Part shown: one piece after another, positions 49,275 through 57,067 of the stretch
Layout of the letters: the number at the start of each line of letters is the position of its first letter
Position numbering within the stretch: position 1 is the first letter of the stretch
DNA from: Methylobacterium nodulans ORS 2060
GTDB taxonomy: Bacteria > Pseudomonadota > Alphaproteobacteria > Rhizobiales > Beijerinckiaceae
Assembly: GCF_000022085.1 (NCBI RefSeq)
Contig: NC_011894.1
Coordinates: 4,703,001 to 4,767,000 of the forward strand
Direction of reading: 5' to 3'
Length of the DNA: 64,000 bases
The notes under the pieces: model-generated
Seen by the model: the letters and a program-made list of their open reading frames with translations, nothing else
What the model was told of the DNA's origin: nothing
Databases searched by the model: none
Program-made: the position numbers and the translations under genes

Positions 49275-49302
49275 TTGACATTTCTTGGAAAATCATTATG
49301 AT
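49275..49302 (+). promoter_or_regulatory. Near-consensus sigma-70 promoter of the RiPP precursor
   Basis: TTGACA (49275-49280), 16-base spacer, TATGAT (49297-49302). This is one base off consensus in each-hexamer terms at -10 and perfect at -35, the best promoter in the window. Transcription would start near 49309, about 70 bases before the preferred precursor start. Confidence 0.75.
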
Positions 49303-49379
49303 GGGAATTTCCAGCGCGTCAGCGCCAGGATGGAATGCAAAGGACCGGTCCGACTCTCACTCCAACAATGGAGGGAACC

Positions 49380-49766
49380 GTGTCGCGAACATCGAAGGAC
49401 AAGTGTCGGAACGAGGCTGTTCCAGTAGCGGGCATTGTCGGATTGACCTTGTCGATGGCCAGTGGAGCGTCCGCAGCTGTCGGCGTTCCAACGCTGGAGG
49501 CAGCATCGCAGGACGTCCCACCTCGGCCCGAGATGGCGCTCGGTCTCCACGAGGAAGAAATCAGCGACGTCAGCCTTGCGACATTCTTCGTCTTCGACAG
49601 GGAAATGACCGATACGTTGCGCGGTGACGTGCAGCTCGCAGGCTACTACCGGGGCTGCCGCGGCTGCTGGGGATGGCGCGGCTGCAGAGGATGTCGCTGC
49701 TGGGGTTGCCGTGGCTGCCGCGGCTGCCGCTGCGGCTGCGGCGGCTGCGGCGGCTGCCGGTGCTAG
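49380..49766 (+). CDS. Cys/Gly-rich precursor peptide of an azole-modified RiPP (TOMM type)
   Basis: 128 residues from GTG 49380, which lies four bases after GGAGGG; ATG 49368 and 49335 are in-frame alternatives. Leader: residues ~1-87, with a hydrophobic signal-like piece (VAGIVGLTLSMASGASAA) and an acidic block EEISDVSLATFFVFDRE probably read by the leader-binding domain. Core: the last 41 residues begin GYYRGCRGCWGW and continue as RGC, WGC, RC and GGC units. The final 36 residues carry 13 Cys and no Ser or Thr, so cyclodehydration could make only thiazolines/thiazoles. Its cyclodehydratase and dehydrogenase follow on the same strand. No known peptide is recognised. Confidence 0.8.
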   Translation: MSRTSKDKCRNEAVPVAGIVGLTLSMASGASAAVGVPTLEAASQDVPPRPEMALGLHEEEISDVSLATFFVFDREMTDTLRGDVQLAGYYRGCRGCWGWRGCRGCRCWGCRGCRGCRCGCGGCGGCRC

Positions 49767-50018
49767 CGACCCCGACGGCTCAACGGCAGGCGAGCTGGCC
49801 CGGATCAAGTCGATTTCGGCCAGTTGTTCAAAATTGGTGCCCGTTCAACCATGAGCGGGTACTCGACCTCGTGTGAGGAGACGAGGGCCTCGCGAGGCCG
49901 CCGGACGCTTTGAGAGGGTGACCTCGCATCTCTCCAGGAGCGACAAGAGTCGGGTATTGTTGCGGAACCCGATTTATTCAGGTGGCGCTGCGTTGTCCGC
50001 TCCAGGCGGAGGCTGATC
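49767..50018 (+). other. Spacer between precursor gene and the Cys-Cys micro-ORF
   Basis: It contains a perfect 14-bp palindrome, GGCCTCGCGAGGCC at 49886-49899, nested next to a CTCGT/ACGAG pair. This could be a partial terminator that lowers transcription of the enzyme genes relative to the precursor. No gene is supported in it. Confidence 0.4.
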
Positions 50019-50090
50019 ATGTCGCGCGTGTGCTGCGATGATGCAGGTCTGGCCTGCTGCGTATCGGCTCCCGGGAATGAGGCTGGATGA
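50019..50090 (+). CDS. Candidate 23-residue Cys-Cys micropeptide
   Basis: ATG 50019 is preceded by GCGGAGG with six bases of spacing, the strongest ribosome binding site in the cluster. The product reads MSRVCCDDAGLACCVSAPGN and ends EAG. It has two CC pairs. It stops 52 bases before the preferred start of the cyclodehydratase gene. It could be a second tiny substrate, a regulatory leader peptide, or a coupling ORF. No homology is known. Confidence 0.45.
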   Translation: MSRVCCDDAGLACCVSAPGNEAG

Positions 50091-50142
50091 TGAGGCACCG
50101 CATAACAAAGACGAAACCAATGTCATGGAGGGCGATCTCAGG

Positions 50143-52401
50143 ATGACAGCTGATCGCGGGAACGTTGCGATTCGGCGAGACGGCCGGGAGATTCCGCGGT
50201 TCGCGCCGAACTTTTCCATCTACGTGCTGCCTCCGAACGCCGTCTGCCTCTATTCAGAGCACCGCAAGTTCTTTCTGGAAGGTGATCTTTATGCTGCGCT
50301 CGCACCGCTGCTGGCGGCCGAGCTGACCCTCGCGGCGATCTTCGACACGCTGGAGCCCGATTTCCCGACCGCGGCCATCACCGAAGCCCTCCGGCGGCTG
50401 GTCGAACGACGCTTCGTCCTGCTCACCGACACGGCGGGCAACGGCACGGCGGCCGCCTTCTGGGCAAGCCTCGGCCTGCCGCCCGAGGCCGCGGAGCTGA
50501 ACCTCCGGAACTGCCGAGTGCGGATCCGAGCGCTCGATGTGGCAGGCACTGAGGACCTCGCGGCGGCACTGGCCGATCTCGGCGTGCGGGTGGTCAGGCG
50601 CGCCGCCGACCTCACGATCGTGCTGGCGAGCGACTATCTCGAGGCGCGTCTCGCGGCGGAGAACCGGCGGCACCTGTCGGAGGGAACGCCTTGGTTGCTC
50701 GTTCAACCCTCCGGGATCTTTCCGCTCGTGGGGCCTCTGTTCACCCCGGGACGGGGCGCCTGCTGGACCTGCCTCGCCGACCGGATGCGATGGAACCGGG
50801 AAATCAAGGCCTTCCTGGAGCGCCGGCAGGCCAAGCCCATGGCGCTGTCGCCTCTGGTCCGCAACATGGTCGGGCAGAGCGCCGTGCCCTTTGCCGCCAT
50901 CGAGATCGCGAAGGCGATCGCCACCGGCTTCCGCACGGACCTGCGCGATCATGTGCTCAGCTTCGATCTGACTGGGTCGACCATCGCCCGGCACTTCGTG
51001 GCAGCGCGTCCGCAATGTCCGAGTTGCGGCGACCCAGGGCGGCGCGATCCGAGCCGTCCGCCGATCCCCCTTGAGCTGAAGGCTGGTGGCAAGCTCGTCC
51101 TGACGAGCGGCGGATACCGGGCGCTGTCACCCGGAGCCACGTTCGCGCGCTACAGCAAGCACGTGAGCCCGCTCACCGGAGTCGTCTCGCGCCTGGAGCC
51201 GATGGAAGCCGACCTCTCGCTGAACACCAGCTACGTCGCGCGACACAACTTCTCGCCCCGTCCCGAGACTGTTTGGGCGCTCAAGGCAGGGCTCGGCGGC
51301 GACAGTTACGGCAAGGGCAGCACGGCCGAGCAGGCCCAGGCCAGCGCCCTGATGGAGGCGATCGAGCGCTATTCCGGGATCTTCCAGGGCGACGAGATCA
51401 GGGTGGTCCGGCGCTTCACGGAGTTCACGCCCGGCGAGGCGATCGCTCCGAACGACGTCATGCTCTTCAGCGATGCGCAATACCGTCAACGCGTGACGGG
51501 GCCGCACGATCACGAATCCGCCGCGCCGGCCCCCTTCGACCCCTCCGCTCCGCTGGAATGGTCGCCGGTCTGGTCCCTGCGGGACCAAAAGTTCAGATAC
51601 CTGCCGACGAGCTTCCTGTACTACTTCTACTGGGGTCCGGGCCATGCCCAGACCAGTGCGGATTCGAACGGCTGCGCGGCCGGGAACACGGTCGAGGAAG
51701 CCATCGTGCAGGGCTTCCTCGAACTCGTCGAGCGGGATGCCTACGCGATCTGGTGGTACAACCGGCTGCGGCGGCCGCCCCTCGACCTTGATGCGCTCGA
51801 AGATTCCTACATCCGCGACCTGCACGCCCAACTGACCGAAGCCGGGCGCCGGCTGTGGGTGCTCGACATCACCAACGATCTCGGCATCCCGACCTTCGTG
51901 GCGGTCTCGCACTGGATGGAGAATGGGGAGGAGTGCATCGAGTTCGGCTCGGGAGCCCATTTCGACACGCGGATCGCCGCGCTGCGCGCGATCACCGAAC
52001 TCAATCAATTCTTCTCGATTGGGCTCATGGCGCGCCGGCACGGCATTGATGCTGCTCACGAGAACGCCCAGCAGTGGCGGCTGGAGGCCAACCCGTACTT
52101 CGTGCCCGAGGGCGCGCCGCGGCTTCCGCCGGATTTCCGCCCGGGGTTCGCCCGCCTCGACCGGCGCGACCAAGTCCTTGCCTGCGTGGACCTGACGGCG
52201 CGTCTCGGCCTCAACTTCCTCGTCCTCGACCAGACGCGTCCAGACATCGACGTACCGGTCGTCAAGGTGATCGTCCCCGGGATGCGGCATTTCTATCGCC
52301 GCTTCGGCCCGGGACGACTCTACGACGTTCCGCTCGCGCTCGGCTGGCTCGACCGGCCCGTTGCCGAGCGCGACCTCAATCCGCTGTTCCCCCCGACCTG
52401 A
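50143..52401 (+). CDS. Fused E1-like leader-binding / YcaO cyclodehydratase of the RiPP cluster
   Basis: 752 residues. The N-terminal ~330 form an E1/ThiF-like domain with leader-binding region and two zinc-type knuckles: CWTCLADR near residue 206 and CPSCGDPG near 292. The rest is YcaO: the ATP/Mg helix SALMEAIERYSG near 401-412, then GCAAGNTVEEAIVQGFLELVERDAY near 508-535 (in pieces) and ALRAITELNQ. YcaO enzymes phosphorylate the backbone amide to close thiazoline rings. The C-terminus is proline-rich (NPLFPPT), resembling but not matching the PxPxP end of azoline synthases. ATG 50143 is chosen for GGAGGG 10 bases upstream; ATG 50125 and earlier starts remain possible. Confidence 0.9.
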   Translation: MTADRGNVAIRRDGREIPRFAPNFSIYVLPPNAVCLYSEHRKFFLEGDLYAALAPLLAAELTLAAIFDTLEPDFPTAAITEALRRLVERRFVLLTDTAGNGTAAAFWASLGLPPEAAELNLRNCRVRIRALDVAGTEDLAAALADLGVRVVRRAADLTIVLASDYLEARLAAENRRHLSEGTPWLLVQPSGIFPLVGPLFTPGRGACWTCLADRMRWNREIKAFLERRQAKPMALSPLVRNMVGQSAVPFAAIEIAKAIATGFRTDLRDHVLSFDLTGSTIARHFVAARPQCPSCGDPGRRDPSRPPIPLELKAGGKLVLTSGGYRALSPGATFARYSKHVSPLTGVVSRLEPMEADLSLNTSYVARHNFSPRPETVWALKAGLGGDSYGKGSTAEQAQASALMEAIERYSGIFQGDEIRVVRRFTEFTPGEAIAPNDVMLFSDAQYRQRVTGPHDHESAAPAPFDPSAPLEWSPVWSLRDQKFRYLPTSFLYYFYWGPGHAQTSADSNGCAAGNTVEEAIVQGFLELVERDAYAIWWYNRLRRPPLDLDALEDSYIRDLHAQLTEAGRRLWVLDITNDLGIPTFVAVSHWMENGEECIEFGSGAHFDTRIAALRAITELNQFFSIGLMARRHGIDAAHENAQQWRLEANPYFVPEGAPRLPPDFRPGFARLDRRDQVLACVDLTARLGLNFLVLDQTRPDIDVPVVKVIVPGMRHFYRRFGPGRLYDVPLALGWLDRPVAERDLNPLFPPT

Positions 52402-52414
52402 GAGGGCTGCCAGC

Positions 52415-53893
52415 ATGCAAGCCTCCCGGACCGCGCACATACAGGCTGCGTCGCCGGCGACGCTGTCGGTCCGGCTCAGCCGCCACATCGCCCTCGAGGC
52501 GGCCGCAGGCGGCGAGATCCTGGTCCGCGTCGAGCATCAAGCGGTCAGTCTCGGCACTTTCGATGCCTGCGTGGTGGAGCACATGCGCGCTCTCTCGGCG
52601 GGTCTGCCGGTGGACCTGCTGGCCGCCAGCCGGGATAGCGTCGACCGGGAGGTGCTGCGGCTCGTCCAGCGCCTCGCCCGAAGCGGCCTCGTCGAGTACA
52701 GCCTCGTCCGCGCGGATCGCGGCGGCGAGGTCGTCATCGAGCCGCAGGTTCCGGATTACTGGCCGCAACTGCCGGACCTGACCGACGGCGACACCCTGGT
52801 CCTCTCGCGGTTCGCCTACATGCGGCGGCGCGCGAGCGAAATGGTGTTGGAATCGCCCCGCTCCGGCGCCCTGTTCCGGCTCGGCGATCCTGCTGCCGCT
52901 GCCATGCTCGCCAGCCTCTCCGAGCCGCAGCCCGTCGCGCGGCTCCGCCGCCAGGACGGCTTCCCGGGCACCGAGCTGCTGGCCCTGCTGCTGGACAGCC
53001 AGATTCTCCTTCGGATCGAGGCGGATGGCGATGCCGGGCTGCGCGCGACGGAGGGTGACGAGCATCTCGTGCTCTGGGACTTCCACGATTTTCTCTTCCA
53101 CACCCGCAGTACGGAGGGCCGGCACGCCAATCCCTTAGGGGGGCGCTACCCCTATGTCGGCCTGTCGAACCCTCCGCCGGCTATTCGCCCCCGCTGGCCC
53201 GGCCGGGCCATCGACCTGCGCAGAGACTCGGACACCCCCGGCGCAACGGTCCGGCCGGTGACGGCGCTGCTGCGCGAGCGCCGTTCGACCCGCAGCTTCG
53301 ACGACCGGGCCCCGCTAACGCGCGCCGAACTGGCGCGGCTCCTCGACAGCGCGGCTCGGGTCCAGGCGACGTGGTGCAGCCCGCTCGACGGCGAGCATGG
53401 CGGCCCGATGATGTCCTACACGGCGAGGCCCTATCCCTCGGCGGGGGCGAGCTACGAACTCGAACTCTACCTTGCGGTCCGGCACTGCGACGGGCTCGCG
53501 CCCGGCTACTATCATTACGATGCAGGCCGGCACGCCCTCACGCTCCTCCATGTGCGCCCGCAGGACCTCGATGCGCTGCTTGCGGCCGCCGCCTTCGCGA
53601 TGGGCGCGCCCGGCCCGCCACAGGTCCTGATCACCATCGCGGCGCGCTTCGGCCGTGTGTCGTGGAAGTACAGCGCCGTGGCCTATGAGCTGATCCTGAA
53701 GAACGTCGGCGTCCTCACGCAGACGCTGTACCTCGTAGCCACGGAGATGGGGCTCGGCGGCTGCGCGATCGGCAGCGCCAACATCGAGCTCTTCGCGAGG
53801 ATGACGGGCCTGCCGCACCACATTGAAGGGGCCGTCGGCCAGTTCGCGCTGGGGCGCGGGCTCGACGAGGAGGAGGCGGACGGCCCGGCATAG
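52415..53893 (+). CDS. SagB-type FMN-dependent azoline dehydrogenase
   Basis: 492 residues. About 1-250 is the peptide-binding N-terminal region of SagB/ThcOx proteins. About 255-485 is a nitroreductase-fold FMN domain, with PVTALLRERRSTRSFDDRAP (FMN-binding Arg pair), YPSAGASYELELYLAV, YSAVAYELILKNVGVLTQTL and MGLGGCAIGSANI. It oxidises thiazolines made by the YcaO partner to aromatic thiazoles. ATG 52415 follows GAGAGGG by nine bases, 13 bases after the cyclodehydratase stop, so the two are one operon. Confidence 0.9.
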   Translation: MQASRTAHIQAASPATLSVRLSRHIALEAAAGGEILVRVEHQAVSLGTFDACVVEHMRALSAGLPVDLLAASRDSVDREVLRLVQRLARSGLVEYSLVRADRGGEVVIEPQVPDYWPQLPDLTDGDTLVLSRFAYMRRRASEMVLESPRSGALFRLGDPAAAAMLASLSEPQPVARLRRQDGFPGTELLALLLDSQILLRIEADGDAGLRATEGDEHLVLWDFHDFLFHTRSTEGRHANPLGGRYPYVGLSNPPPAIRPRWPGRAIDLRRDSDTPGATVRPVTALLRERRSTRSFDDRAPLTRAELARLLDSAARVQATWCSPLDGEHGGPMMSYTARPYPSAGASYELELYLAVRHCDGLAPGYYHYDAGRHALTLLHVRPQDLDALLAAAAFAMGAPGPPQVLITIAARFGRVSWKYSAVAYELILKNVGVLTQTLYLVATEMGLGGCAIGSANIELFARMTGLPHHIEGAVGQFALGRGLDEEEADGPA

Positions 53894-53910: not shown

Positions 53911-55548
53911 TCAGCGCCCGATCCCCTGCGCCGTGCGCAGCGCCAGGGCCGCGATCGTGAGCGCGGGCCCCTCGCCACCTCCCGACGATGGGAAGACGCT
54001 CGCGTCGGTGATCCAAAGATTGCGCCAGCGGTGGGAGCGCAGGCTCGGATCGATCACTGAGGTTGCCGGATCTGTGCCCATACGGCAGGTGCCGAAGACG
54101 TGCGTGGCGTTGAACATGTCCCAGGTGGTCAGCACATCGATCAGGTCGGTGGCGCCGCAGGCGGCCAGCATCGCGCGGCAGGTGACCGCCATGAAGCGCA
54201 GGCGGGCGATCTCGGATTCCACCAGCCAGGAGGTGATACGGGCTACCGGAATGCCGAACCTGTCGCGCGCCTGCGCGTCGAGGTCGACCCGGGCGACTGC
54301 GTTGGGAAGGCTCTCGCCGAGGGCCGAGAGGCTCAGCGAGTGCCCCCAGGTGCGGCGCATCTCACGGGCATGGTCGCGGCCCCAGCCCGGCACCGCATGG
54401 ATGGCGAAGGCCGACAGGCCCAGAAAGCCAGCTTCGGCCGAGGAGTTGTAGAGGCGGCACCCGCCCACCACGCCCGGGATCGCGTCGGGTGCGTTGAAGT
54501 CCCAGCAGATGGCGTCGTCGGGCAAGCCCCGCCGGGCATGCTGCGGCTCCGGGTGCAGGGCAATCAGCACGGTTGCCAGCGTCTCCATGAAGTTGCGCCC
54601 GACCTGCCCGCTCTCGTTGGCGAGGTCGTCCGAGGCGAGCAGCAGTCGCGGCGTCTCGACCGCACCGGCGGCCAGCACGAGATGTGGCGTGACGATCCGC
54701 TCCAGGCTGCCGTCCGGGCGGCCGACCAGCACGGCGGCCACGCGGTCGTCGGGGCCGGATTCGATCCGGACGACAGGCGATTCGGCACGCAATGTGCAGC
54801 GGCCCGTCGCGAGCGCGCCGGCGACGAATGTGACGTCGGCGCTGCCCTTGTCCCCCGGCATGCAGCCCATCTGGCAGGCGCCGCAATAGTTGCACGGCGG
54901 CCTCTTGCCGGAAGGCCGCGAGAGAGCCGCGCGGCTGTTGGCCTCCCAGCCGAGCCCGAGCGCGGCAGCCCCCCGGCCGAGGGTCCGCGCCCCGTAGGAC
55001 AGGGGATGGGGCGGCAGCGGAAAGGGCGCGGAACGCCAGCGGGCGCCCTGCGCCGCCGGGCCCGCGACGCCCATGATCCGCTCGGCCCGGACATAGAAGG
55101 GTTCGAGTTCCGCGTAGTCGATGGGCCAGTCCGCGGCGACACCGAAGCGGCTCCGCATCCGCATCGCTGCGGGATGGAGACGGTGGGCCTCTCCGGTGAA
55201 GTGGAGAGTGCTGCCGCCCACCCCGCGCACGTGATGATACTGGCCCATCACGCGCCGCCGCCCCTCGACGTGACGGCCCGAGACACGATTCCACGAAGCG
55301 AGCTGGGGTTCGTCCGCCGCCAGGACCTGACCGCGCGCGAAGCTCACCCGGCCCTGCGACCCTGGCTTCTCGGGGAAGTCGCGCAGCTCCCAATCCGTCC
55401 TGGCCTGGCCGTAATCGGCTGCCGGATCGAAGCGCGGACCAGCTTCCAGCAGGAGGACCGACAGGCCGCGCTCGCACAGGCCGTACGCCGCCGCGGCTCC
55501 TCCGGCCCCGCTTCCCACGACGACGACGTCCCAGCCGGGCGCCGTCAC
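53911..55548 (-). CDS. GMC-family FAD oxidoreductase (gluconate dehydrogenase large-subunit type)
   Basis: 545 residues. N-terminal FAD site VVVVGSGAGGAAAAYGLCERG; RGVGGSTLHFTGEAHRL (GMC signature 1); a Cys cluster CNYCGACQMGCMPGDKGSAD; LVLAAGAVETPRLLL (signature 2); and C-terminal NATHVFGTCRMG with active-site His and LWITDASVFPSSGG. It is most like membrane-bound sugar/alcohol dehydrogenases that work with a small subunit and a cytochrome c. The small subunit is the overlapping upstream gene; no cytochrome gene is present. It faces the sagB-type gene tail to tail with 17 bases between. Confidence 0.88.
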   Translation of the reverse strand: MTAPGWDVVVVGSGAGGAAAAYGLCERGLSVLLLEAGPRFDPAADYGQARTDWELRDFPEKPGSQGRVSFARGQVLAADEPQLASWNRVSGRHVEGRRRVMGQYHHVRGVGGSTLHFTGEAHRLHPAAMRMRSRFGVAADWPIDYAELEPFYVRAERIMGVAGPAAQGARWRSAPFPLPPHPLSYGARTLGRGAAALGLGWEANSRAALSRPSGKRPPCNYCGACQMGCMPGDKGSADVTFVAGALATGRCTLRAESPVVRIESGPDDRVAAVLVGRPDGSLERIVTPHLVLAAGAVETPRLLLASDDLANESGQVGRNFMETLATVLIALHPEPQHARRGLPDDAICWDFNAPDAIPGVVGGCRLYNSSAEAGFLGLSAFAIHAVPGWGRDHAREMRRTWGHSLSLSALGESLPNAVARVDLDAQARDRFGIPVARITSWLVESEIARLRFMAVTCRAMLAACGATDLIDVLTTWDMFNATHVFGTCRMGTDPATSVIDPSLRSHRWRNLWITDASVFPSSGGGEGPALTIAALALRTAQGIGR

Positions 55549-56081
55549 CGCGGCGCCTCCTCGAAGTCCGGGAAGCCCCCGGGCTGGGGCGGCCCCGCAT
55601 ACGCGAACGCCGCCATCACGGTCGGATGGGAGTAGTAGGCGGTGAGAGCGAACTCGCGCAGGCGCCACGCGATGGCGGCAGCGCCCTCCGCAGTGGAGGC
55701 TCTCGCGGCCCTGAGAATCGCCTCCTGCCGGGCTTCGTCGAGCGCGAGGAAATCCGGGGCATTCACCCTCCGGGCTCGGCCGTCGAGCCACGCGACACCG
55801 GCCGCGAGGCTCCGTTGCAGCTCCGGATCGGCCAGTGCGAGGATGCGGCGGTCGATCCCGAGCGCGCATCCACCCGGCAGCTCGTCGGCCGGCAGCATGC
55901 GGTCGATCACGGCCGCGATCGTTCGTGCAGTGTGCGCCTCGCGTGGCCGGCGCGCCGCGACAGCGCCGCGCTCGTGCAGGAGGACTCCCCCGATCAGCAG
56001 CAGGCGCCAGAGACCGATGAGCAGGCGCCGACGGGAAGAGAGCGGCCCCGGTGCGACGGGCGCGGGCCGGTTCATGGTCAT
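55545..56081 (-). CDS. Gluconate 2-dehydrogenase subunit 3-like protein
   Basis: 178 residues. A Tat-like start (SSRRRLLIGLWRLLLIGG) leads to the subunit-3 fold: TARTIAAVIDRMLPADELPG, DPELQRSLAAGVAWLDG and the C-terminal AYYSHPTVMAAFAYAGPPQPGGFPDF read in pieces. The partner GMC protein has no Tat signal, so it may be exported as a hitchhiker of this subunit. The ends overlap by GTGA. ATG 56081 is preferred; ATG 56075 is close. Confidence 0.8.
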   Translation of the reverse strand: MTMNRPAPVAPGPLSSRRRLLIGLWRLLLIGGVLLHERGAVAARRPREAHTARTIAAVIDRMLPADELPGGCALGIDRRILALADPELQRSLAAGVAWLDGRARRVNAPDFLALDEARQEAILRAARASTAEGAAAIAWRLREFALTAYYSHPTVMAAFAYAGPPQPGGFPDFEEAPR

Positions 56082-56149
56082 CCCGCCGAGCGCCGGCGAG
56101 TCGGGCGGCCCGGAAGCCGAAGCGCCGCTTCGCACGCTGCAGGGGGAGT

Positions 56150-57067
56150 TCACGCGCGCCGACCCGGCGGGCCTTCCGGCGGCGCGTCGGGCGCCCCGGG
56201 AGCTTCCGCATGGAGTGACCCGATGCGCGTCATCAGGACCCTGCCTCCGGACGAGCGCCCGTGCCAGTCGCTTGCCCACGTCACGGTGACGGTCCGGGCG
56301 CGTCCTCTCCCCATCAGGGCGAACAGGACTCCCTGCGGGTCCATGCCGTGCAGGATCCAGGTGCCGCCGGGACCTTCCATCGGTCCGTTGAGGATCTGGC
56401 CGCCTCCGGACGTCACGCGCTCGGCCGCCCGTGCGATGTCCGGGACCACGAAGTAGTGAAGCCAGAACGCAGCGGGCACGATCTCGGGTTTGGTGAGCAC
56501 GCCGCCGATCGCTTGCCTGCCCGCCGCAAACACGCTGTATTCGCCCGCCGGATCGACCTCCCCGCCCTCCGCGTAGTCCCAGCCGAAGAGTTCGCGGTAG
56601 AAGCCCAGCGCGGTACGTCCGTCAGCGGCAAGGAGCTCGGACCAGCCAACATGGCCCGGACGGTCGGCTGGATCGACCTCCTCCGGGCGGGGCACGAGCC
56701 ATCTGAACAGCCCGAGCCGCGCCGCCTGCGGATCGCTGATGACCGCGAAACGGCTCACATTCGGGACTTCTGTCGGCGGGATGTGCAGCGTGCCGCCGAG
56801 ACGTACAGCCCGGTTGGCAGCGGCATCGACATCGCTGGCGCCGACATAGCCGATCCAACTCGGCCGCGCCCCCGTCCGCTGCGCCGCACTGGGCAGCGCC
56901 ATCATCCCGCAAACCGACGTCTCGCCGATCGTCAGGAGCGTGTAGGGCATGCCCGGCACAGAGGCGTCTCTCGTGCCCCAGCCGACGACATCGGCGTAAA
57001 AGGCCCTCGCCGCCGCCATGTCGCCCGTCATCAACTCGAACCAGACGAACCGGCCTTGAGGAGCCAT
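56150..57067 (-). CDS. Two-domain VOC (glyoxalase/bleomycin-resistance fold) protein
   Basis: 305 residues holding two vicinal-oxygen-chelate modules. The first is ~5-115 (GRFVWFELMTGDMAAARAFY, IGYVGASDVDAAANRAVRLG); the second is ~125-245 (HVGWSELLAADGRTALGFYR, FVVPDIARAAERVTSGGGQI, ending DPQGVLFALMG). Family members are dioxygenases, glyoxalases or drug-binding resistance proteins. The ~50-residue C-terminal tail is extra and of low complexity. A self-protection role for the RiPP is possible but only suggested by proximity. Confidence 0.8.
   Translation of the reverse strand: MAPQGRFVWFELMTGDMAAARAFYADVVGWGTRDASVPGMPYTLLTIGETSVCGMMALPSAAQRTGARPSWIGYVGASDVDAAANRAVRLGGTLHIPPTEVPNVSRFAVISDPQAARLGLFRWLVPRPEEVDPADRPGHVGWSELLAADGRTALGFYRELFGWDYAEGGEVDPAGEYSVFAAGRQAIGGVLTKPEIVPAAFWLHYFVVPDIARAAERVTSGGGQILNGPMEGPGGTWILHGMDPQGVLFALMGRGRARTVTVTWASDWHGRSSGGRVLMTRIGSLHAEAPGAPDAPPEGPPGRRA

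Follow-up and report, generated by a model that had tools for sequence, protein, structure and literature searches.

How would a peptide made by a compact azole cluster leave the cell, and what would shield its producer, when no exporter, protease or obvious immunity gene is recognised beside it? The question is raised by a 64,000-nt stretch of the Methylobacterium nodulans ORS 2060 genome (NC_011894.1, positions 4,703,001–4,767,000; C7:4703001-4767000 of an 8.84-Mb, 8-contig genome; here 'the window'). In this stretch a sequence-only reading had recognised three adjacent genes for a thiazole/oxazole-modified microcin (TOMM), a type of ribosomally synthesised and post-translationally modified peptide (RiPP). 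Comparison with related loci and genomes favours, on balance, a thiazole cassette whose peptide is likely exported by Sec without a dedicated exporter, and in which a protein of the vicinal oxygen chelate (VOC) fold probably binds the product, thereby guarding the producer.

A predicted thiazole-forming cassette in the window

The precursor, the fused E1-like/YcaO cyclodehydratase and the SagB-type dehydrogenase are real genes of the TOMM pathway, lying in that order on the plus strand as the sequence-only reading had them. The main features are as follows.

49380..49766, plus strand: TOMM precursor, 128 aa, GTG start after GGAGGG (homologues, leader hidden Markov model [HMM], selection)
49380..49475, plus strand: signal-peptide-like segment of the precursor, residues 1–32, ending ASA (predicted by a simple rule of our own)
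49551..49604, plus strand: conserved block EEEISDVSLATFFVFDRE, residues 58–75, likely enzyme recognition sequence (41-sequence alignment)
49644..49763, plus strand: core YYRGC...CRC, 40 residues with 13 Cys and no Ser or Thr (sequence)
50143..52401, plus strand: fused E1-like/YcaO cyclodehydratase, 752 aa, LynD/TruD/MusD-like, ATG start (curated models, alignments; start refined from the 752-aa database entry P0121)
52415..53893, plus strand: SagB/ThcOx-type flavin mononucleotide (FMN) azoline dehydrogenase, 492 aa, with Lys-Tyr motif, ATG start (curated models, likeness to CyaGox)
56150..57067, minus strand: tandem VOC (glyoxalase-fold) protein, dedicated partner as judged from profile matches, relatives and tree (start at 57067 inferred from relatives; the open frame extends to 57130)

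Both enzymes score above the cut-offs of their curated models, in agreement with the family motifs first reported for them: the fused enzyme with TIGR03882 (157 bits; cut-off 36.9), TIGR03604 (248; cut-off 219) and PF02624 (334; cut-off 25.7), and the dehydrogenase with TIGR03605 (170 bits; cut-off 78), PF22767 and PF00881. A single YcaO match at E ≤ 1e-3 was found in the genome. Two CxxC pairs of the fused enzyme (C207/C210 and C292/C295) are invariant in 28 rows of relatives, and KY[SRNAG], the Lys-Tyr motif that we take to be catalytic in the SagB-type family, is present in 76/77 dehydrogenase copies longer than 430 aa. A YcaO enzyme with E1-like fusion, a short Cys-rich precursor beside it and the optional FMN dehydrogenase, three marks of a TOMM pathway, are found here, supporting assignment to the azole RiPPs; azol(in)e rings in the product are predicted. 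Since a SagB-type dehydrogenase is present, thiazoles are expected, and the cassette is predicted to cyclise up to 13 precursor cysteines.

The cassette recurs with a VOC partner

A scan of a species-genome collection gave 134 confirmed places, of which 80 were kept; with a Methylovirgula plasmid locus and the window these make 82 loci, or 83 when the window's own fragment (L001), which contains no precursor, is included. The kept loci are mostly from Bradyrhizobium, Xanthobacteraceae, Methylocystis and other Hyphomicrobiales, and the homology search and neighbourhood comparison that the sequence-only reading had called for thus show family and cassette recurring in Bradyrhizobium and related bacteria. 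A locus with the typical Bradyrhizobium-like cassette was also found in a record titled Frankia sp. RB7 (L037), where the title may be a misassignment. With the leader HMM, a precursor is found immediately before the cyclodehydratase in the window and in 74/81 relatives (L002–L082); in the other seven (L014, L017, L044, L045, L048, L049, L082) the contig extends for less than 500 bases before the enzyme match. Of the families of called genes, only three are found in over 20 of the 83 loci: the cyclodehydratase (83), the dehydrogenase (81) and a VOC-fold protein (59). Eight rarer neighbour families (OpgC, two carboxylase subunits, an NADH-dehydrogenase subunit, DUF192, cold-shock, SIR2 and an amidase, the last in Methylocystis) look like lineage synteny, and no exporter or leader peptidase was found among them when they were scanned in relatives.

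The VOC gene lies on the strand opposite to the enzymes in all 59 loci of this first count (window included), either upstream of the precursor and divergent from it or downstream of the dehydrogenase and convergent with it. A profile search found it in 65/82 loci, the remaining 17 being 12 Methylocystis-type loci and five contigs shorter than 6 kb; among 13 genomes in which the first count had left the locus without a VOC, five yielded one at E ≤ 1e-40, these being the non-Methylocystis-type ones. The Methylocystis-type variant (L028, L033, L034, L039, L042, L043, L044, L047, L051, L053, L056 and L059, of which L044 is counted by record title alone, its precursor not being seen) has the leader block EQEVFDVGLxSFRLFDRE and no VOC, and in some loci an amidase gene (PF01425) right after the dehydrogenase.

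In a VOC tree all 63 cassette-labelled proteins fall on one side of a single branch, with 12 others on the other side (support 100/99; all 200 bootstrap trees), whether the gene lies upstream or downstream of the enzymes. The 12 background proteins were hand-picked (11 from 43 places in the window's genus, one from the search of a Bradyrhizobium-like genus), two cassette rows are identical, and one protein labelled as cassette (L111) lies beside a distal precursor.

In 265 genomes of the Bradyrhizobium-like genus the precursor was found in 116 (E ≤ 1e-3), the VOC in 116 (E ≤ 1e-60) and the cyclodehydratase in 118 (E ≤ 1e-150), reduced to 116 by dropping two matches at 577–579 bits (G555, G609). 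Second, weak cyclodehydratase matches in G604 and G612 were dropped before the sets were compared, and the kept matches score at least 1,042 bits, except for a contig-end fragment of 626 bits (G633). The three sets are identical: the same 116/265 genomes carry all three components and none carries just one or two, with the VOC gene within 6 kb of the enzyme in 113/116 and on another contig in the remaining three. In the window's genus 3/111 genomes have the precursor, and only those three have a VOC of at least 74% identity; some VOC relative is present in 37/111. The precursor was matched in 9/397 genomes of an order-wide sample (two only at ~1e-4) and, at E ≤ 1e-10, only in the window's own genome in a class-wide sample of 385.

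By distribution and phylogeny, then, the VOC gene is a dedicated fourth member of the cassette in lineages other than the Methylocystis type. The description of the cluster as a compact three-gene unit has to be revised, its fourth gene standing 2.3 kb beyond the dehydrogenase, and the statement that no obvious immunity gene is nearby becomes doubtful, given the glyoxalase/bleomycin-resistance fold of this protein.

Precursor family, leader and core

The precursor had been called unfamiliar; no characterised product was found for it, but it belongs to a large family, with 1,896 matches at E ≤ 1e-3 among 2,370 candidates, some of which may rest on the repetitive core, and those listed share the window leader. 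A chance open reading frame (ORF) was rejected on homologues and purifying selection; dN/dS between Methylobacterium species is 0.24–0.28 for the leader and 0.13–0.34 for the core. The 41 aligned members have a three-part build: a signal-like start, basic and then uncharged and mildly hydrophobic, ending ASA; after a variable linker, the conserved block; and the Cys core. The block (consensus EEISDVSLATFxxFDxE) stands between signal-like start and core, has nine residues invariant in the 41 sequences (E58, E59, E60, D63, L66, T68, F69, D73 and E75) and, by the first pattern used, is present in 116/121 precursors (the 120 matches listed plus the window).

A simple, self-devised signal-peptide rule was passed by 59/76 cluster precursors and by 17/21 precursors located away from the enzymes (distal precursors), compared with 31/1,052 other called genes and 61/15,200 shuffled leaders as controls. 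No dedicated exporter or leader protease was found beside the cluster among the 16 window proteins scanned, as the sequence-only reading had stated; the signal-like start, which that reading overlooked, may account for this, and predicted Sec export would explain the missing exporter.

Cores (mean of 74 cluster precursors) consist of 24% Cys, 31% Gly, 12% Arg and 4% Ser plus Thr, with His below 1% of residues on average. Of at least 1,412 core Cys, 1,056 come directly after a Gly, and Gly before Cys is usual in heterocyclised TOMM cores. CGHG repeats, suggestive of metal binding, occur in the cores of L002, L019, L027 and L077. At ~5 kb from its first precursor, one locus has another precursor-like ORF (L080:14596-15036) that combines a short Cys stretch with a long, unrelated tail.

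Scattered precursors and a single strong cyclodehydratase

Two to seven precursors are present in 34 of the 116 carrier genomes, for 185 precursors in all, these counts being lower bounds (16 first-look candidates scored per genome). Each of the 34 has one strong cyclodehydratase by a genome-wide count of this enzyme. Twenty distal precursors taken from the list were read; their distance from the enzyme ranges from ~20 kb up to several Mb, unless they stand on a different contig. In these the leader is kept and the core varies in length and sequence; 17/20 end in CC-x-SWG-x-CR-x-C or an RWG near variant (exceptions L110, L119 and L120). No neighbour shared by the distal precursors was found, one family occurring in 3/21 loci and others in two or one. 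One distal precursor, far from the enzymes, is accompanied by its own VOC of the cassette branch (L111:2926-4546).

The genome of the window also has an intact orphan precursor, 2.24 Mb away (C7:2511099-2511485; L084:1501-1887), that encodes the same core. The two copies are 88% identical over 441 bases, with a diverged 5′ half and a nearly identical 3′ half: from the SDVSLATFF codons 150 bases are identical, with three differences thereafter. Leader dN/dS between them is 0.30, and the core has no amino-acid change. Because the 3′ DNA is near-identical and the orphan encodes an identical core, recent gene conversion or a similar exchange between the copies is suggested. A single enzyme set likely serves extra precursor genes elsewhere in about three in ten carrier genomes of one genus. 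The earlier idea that the cluster may rely on genes elsewhere holds in this different sense, what lies elsewhere in the genome being further precursors.

Local sequence features and neighbouring genes

Two further features precede the precursor gene.

49275..49302, plus strand: sigma-70-like promoter TTGACA-16-TATGAT (11/12 matches; consensus match only)
49370..49376, plus strand: Shine-Dalgarno-like GGAGGGA before the GTG start (sequence)

The 5.1 kb scanned contain two promoter-like sites, where shuffled sequence has 0.4 on average. The GTG start is shared by the window precursor and all four other Methylobacterium copies compared, two of which (L003 and L087) are identical; GGAGGGA is the same in 3/4 of these copies, with GGAGAG in the remaining one. 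A consensus scan found no terminator between precursor and enzymes in the window. In relatives the gap between precursor and cyclodehydratase (e.g. L015:9851-9990) contains a GGCCGGGTC..GACCCGGCC hairpin that is conserved and frequently ends in a T-rich tail: a GCCGGG..CCCGGC palindrome is present in 47/75 gaps and a T-rich-tailed hairpin in 44/75, and in 51/75 the hairpin is more than 2 sd stronger than in shuffles. Such a hairpin may lower readthrough into the enzyme genes.

A gene for a Dps-like protein precedes the precursor in the window, and ten more genes within ~11 kb are ordinary (ribose isomerase, solute-binding protein, acyl-CoA dehydrogenase, L,D-transpeptidase, aldehyde dehydrogenase, LysR regulator and others). 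A GMC oxidoreductase gene and a companion ORF (53911-56279, minus strand) lie between dehydrogenase and VOC in the window but not in Methylobacterium crusticola (L003); the oxidoreductase is not counted as a cassette member, the VOC gene in M. crusticola lying only 27 bases after the dehydrogenase.

Proposed mechanism and alternative explanations

In the mechanism that we propose, the E1-like half of the fused enzyme would hold the newly made precursor by its block, EEISDVSLATFFVFDRE, the YcaO half would use ATP to turn cysteines into thiazolines, and the SagB enzyme would oxidise these; binding by E1-like domains, cyclisation by YcaO and oxidation by SagB enzymes are the roles of these families. 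The modified peptide would then be exported by Sec, signal peptidase cutting after ASA (residue 32), and an unlinked protease would remove the rest of the leader outside. Product left inside would be bound by the VOC protein, acting as binder and protector rather than as a tailoring enzyme, and distant precursors would be modified in trans by the single enzyme set. As far as thiazole formation this scheme draws on families that are well known; we infer the export, the trimming, the action in trans and the role of the VOC.

Several points weigh against this mechanism. Modification in the cytoplasm and export by Sec would compete in time, a problem that the authors of the bufferin study discuss for their own system (PMC12452194). 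The signal rule, itself our own, is failed by 17/76 cluster precursors, two of the 17 being Methylocystis-type; of six failing starts that were checked, three fall short of the hydrophobicity cut by 0.01 and three fail by the place or absence of AxA, one of these being Methylocystis-type. Distal precursors could be unmodified relics. The counted genomes are related, and co-occurrence among them does not amount to 265 independent events. As to the VOC, 17 Methylobacterium genomes without a precursor have one at 43–50% identity, and AbxF, its nearest named relative besides Rv0577, is a tailoring enzyme. The eight Methylocystis-type genomes searched have no VOC at E ≤ 1e-40, and 12/82 loci have none in their flanks; a variant without VOC means that the protein is not required in every lineage, which weakens its proposed role as protector.

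With AbxF as a relative, it is conceivable, if doubtful, that within the same TOMM pathway the VOC protein alters the azole peptide instead of guarding against it. The opposite orientation of VOC and enzymes in 59/59 loci speaks against tailoring, and the orphan precursor that is distant from the enzymes and has its own cassette-branch VOC (L111) fits protection better. The leader start could likewise, though this is somewhat unlikely, be something other than a Sec signal, its hydrophobic stretch serving in enzyme binding or in recognition by an unlinked double-glycine-type ABC peptidase-exporter, so that the product would use that route or remain in the cell. The hydrophobicity of the stretch is only mild, an efflux pump is typical of clusters for linear azol(in)e-containing peptides (PMC6783444), and GG[AGST] occurs somewhere before the block in 81/117 homologues with a readable block. 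AxA (A[SAV]A) is better kept, however, standing before the block in 116/117 of the same homologues and within the uncharged stretch of fetched loci in 60/65, against 36/65 for GG (a count that excludes 11 Methylocystis-type leaders, whose block differs); moreover, the families recurring in more than 20 of 83 loci are those of the cassette only, and the eight rarer ones scanned include neither an exporter nor a leader peptidase.

Two further explanations concern the product. Instead of an antibiotic it might be a peptide that binds metal in the periplasm, comparable to the copper-binding bufferins, the ligands being azoles together with any thiols or His that remain. A signal-like start with a Cys-rich core is the bufferin pattern (PMC12452194), several cores have the CGHG repeats described above, and the Methylovirgula cluster is flanked by a multicopper oxidase on one side and a cbb3 oxidase/P-type ATPase region on the other; yet the modifying enzymes are of a different class from those of bufferins, His is scarce in the cores and no metal gene recurs beside the cassette, which leaves this explanation improbable. 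Export of an unmodified Cys-rich peptide, with the adjoining enzymes acting on another substrate, draws on the fact that modification is so far predicted only, but is very hard to reconcile with co-occurrence in 116/116 genomes, the fixed adjacency of precursor and cyclodehydratase, and Gly before most core Cys as in heterocyclised TOMM cores. The thiazole cassette with probable Sec export and a VOC protector therefore remains our preferred reading. A bolder version, in which one enzyme pair making varied thiazole peptides from scattered precursors, a true Sec signal preceding the recognition leader and a dedicated VOC guard form a lineage-wide system of the Hyphomicrobiales, the first Sec-exported class of azole RiPPs and the first VOC guard for any RiPP, is put forward only tentatively.

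Comparison with known systems

The enzymes of the cassette most resemble those of the cyanobactins. LynD aligns with the window's fused enzyme over residues 19–748 of 752 (E 2e-150), TruD is similar over the full length, and CyaGox matches the dehydrogenase over residues 110–485 of 492 (E 1e-55). Leader and core differ from those of cyanobactins, however, and the cassette has a VOC partner. Cyanobactin membership was rejected, as PatA/PatG-type partner genes were not found: none of the families found in over 20 of the 83 loci is such a protease or macrocyclase, nor is one present among the 16 window proteins and eight relatives' neighbours scanned. The heterocycloanthracin (HCA)/sonorensin family has a similar Gly/Cys-repeat core; its model TIGR03601 matches residues 102–141 of the 143-aa frame weakly, and membership was rejected at 17.7 bits, below the cut-off of 35. 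The HCA CD enzyme lacks ~100 N-terminal residues and works with a separate F protein (PMC4603692), whereas the window enzyme aligns to LynD from residue 19.

Bufferins have Cys-containing precursors with a Sec-type signal, a trait that few bacterial RiPPs have according to their authors (PMC12452194); for the window precursor such a signal is no more than a prediction. Bufferins are modified by an MNIO enzyme, whereas the peptide of the window cassette would be modified by YcaO and SagB enzymes, and bufferin membership was rejected, with no MNIO enzyme or partner among neighbours in the 83-locus counts or in the scans of 16 window proteins and eight relatives' neighbours. In the prochlorosin system (SyncA) one promiscuous enzyme acts on several precursors whose leader is conserved and whose core varies (PMC10783134); here the genes for such an arrangement are present, and action of the one enzyme on them is predicted. 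Prochlorosins differ in lanthionine chemistry, Nif11-type leaders, cyanobacterial hosts and up to 143 precursors per genome; the same source mentions a promiscuous YcaO in Methylovulum (PMC10783134).

Phazolicin and trifolitoxin are, like the product predicted here, azole RiPPs of Hyphomicrobiales (PMC6783444). Phazolicin differs in its separate C and D genes, its exporter PhzE, which confers immunity, and a core with Ser/Thr besides Cys; trifolitoxin, at that time the sole described rhizobial RiPP with thiazoles or oxazoles (PMC6783444), is believed to be made with a D protein but no C protein (PMC4603692). Among VOC proteins, Rv0577 and AbxF, both outside our tree, are named in titles that mention no RiPP pathway, and in the comparison with genomic VOCs the cassette proteins stand on a branch of their own. 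Cox et al. 2015 defines more than 20 TOMM families, and 'rhizobi' and 'methylo' appear nowhere in its main text (PMC4603692). Descriptions of the cassette, or of the core and leader motifs tried, were not found in the literature searched, which largely excludes subscription papers, and the family is apparently undescribed. It would add to root-nodule, soil and methylotrophic bacteria an abundant TOMM family, present in 116/265 species genomes of the Bradyrhizobium-like genus, and would make testable whether heterocyclised peptides pass through Sec, whether one YcaO enzyme acts on many scattered substrates, and whether a VOC protein guards or tailors a RiPP.

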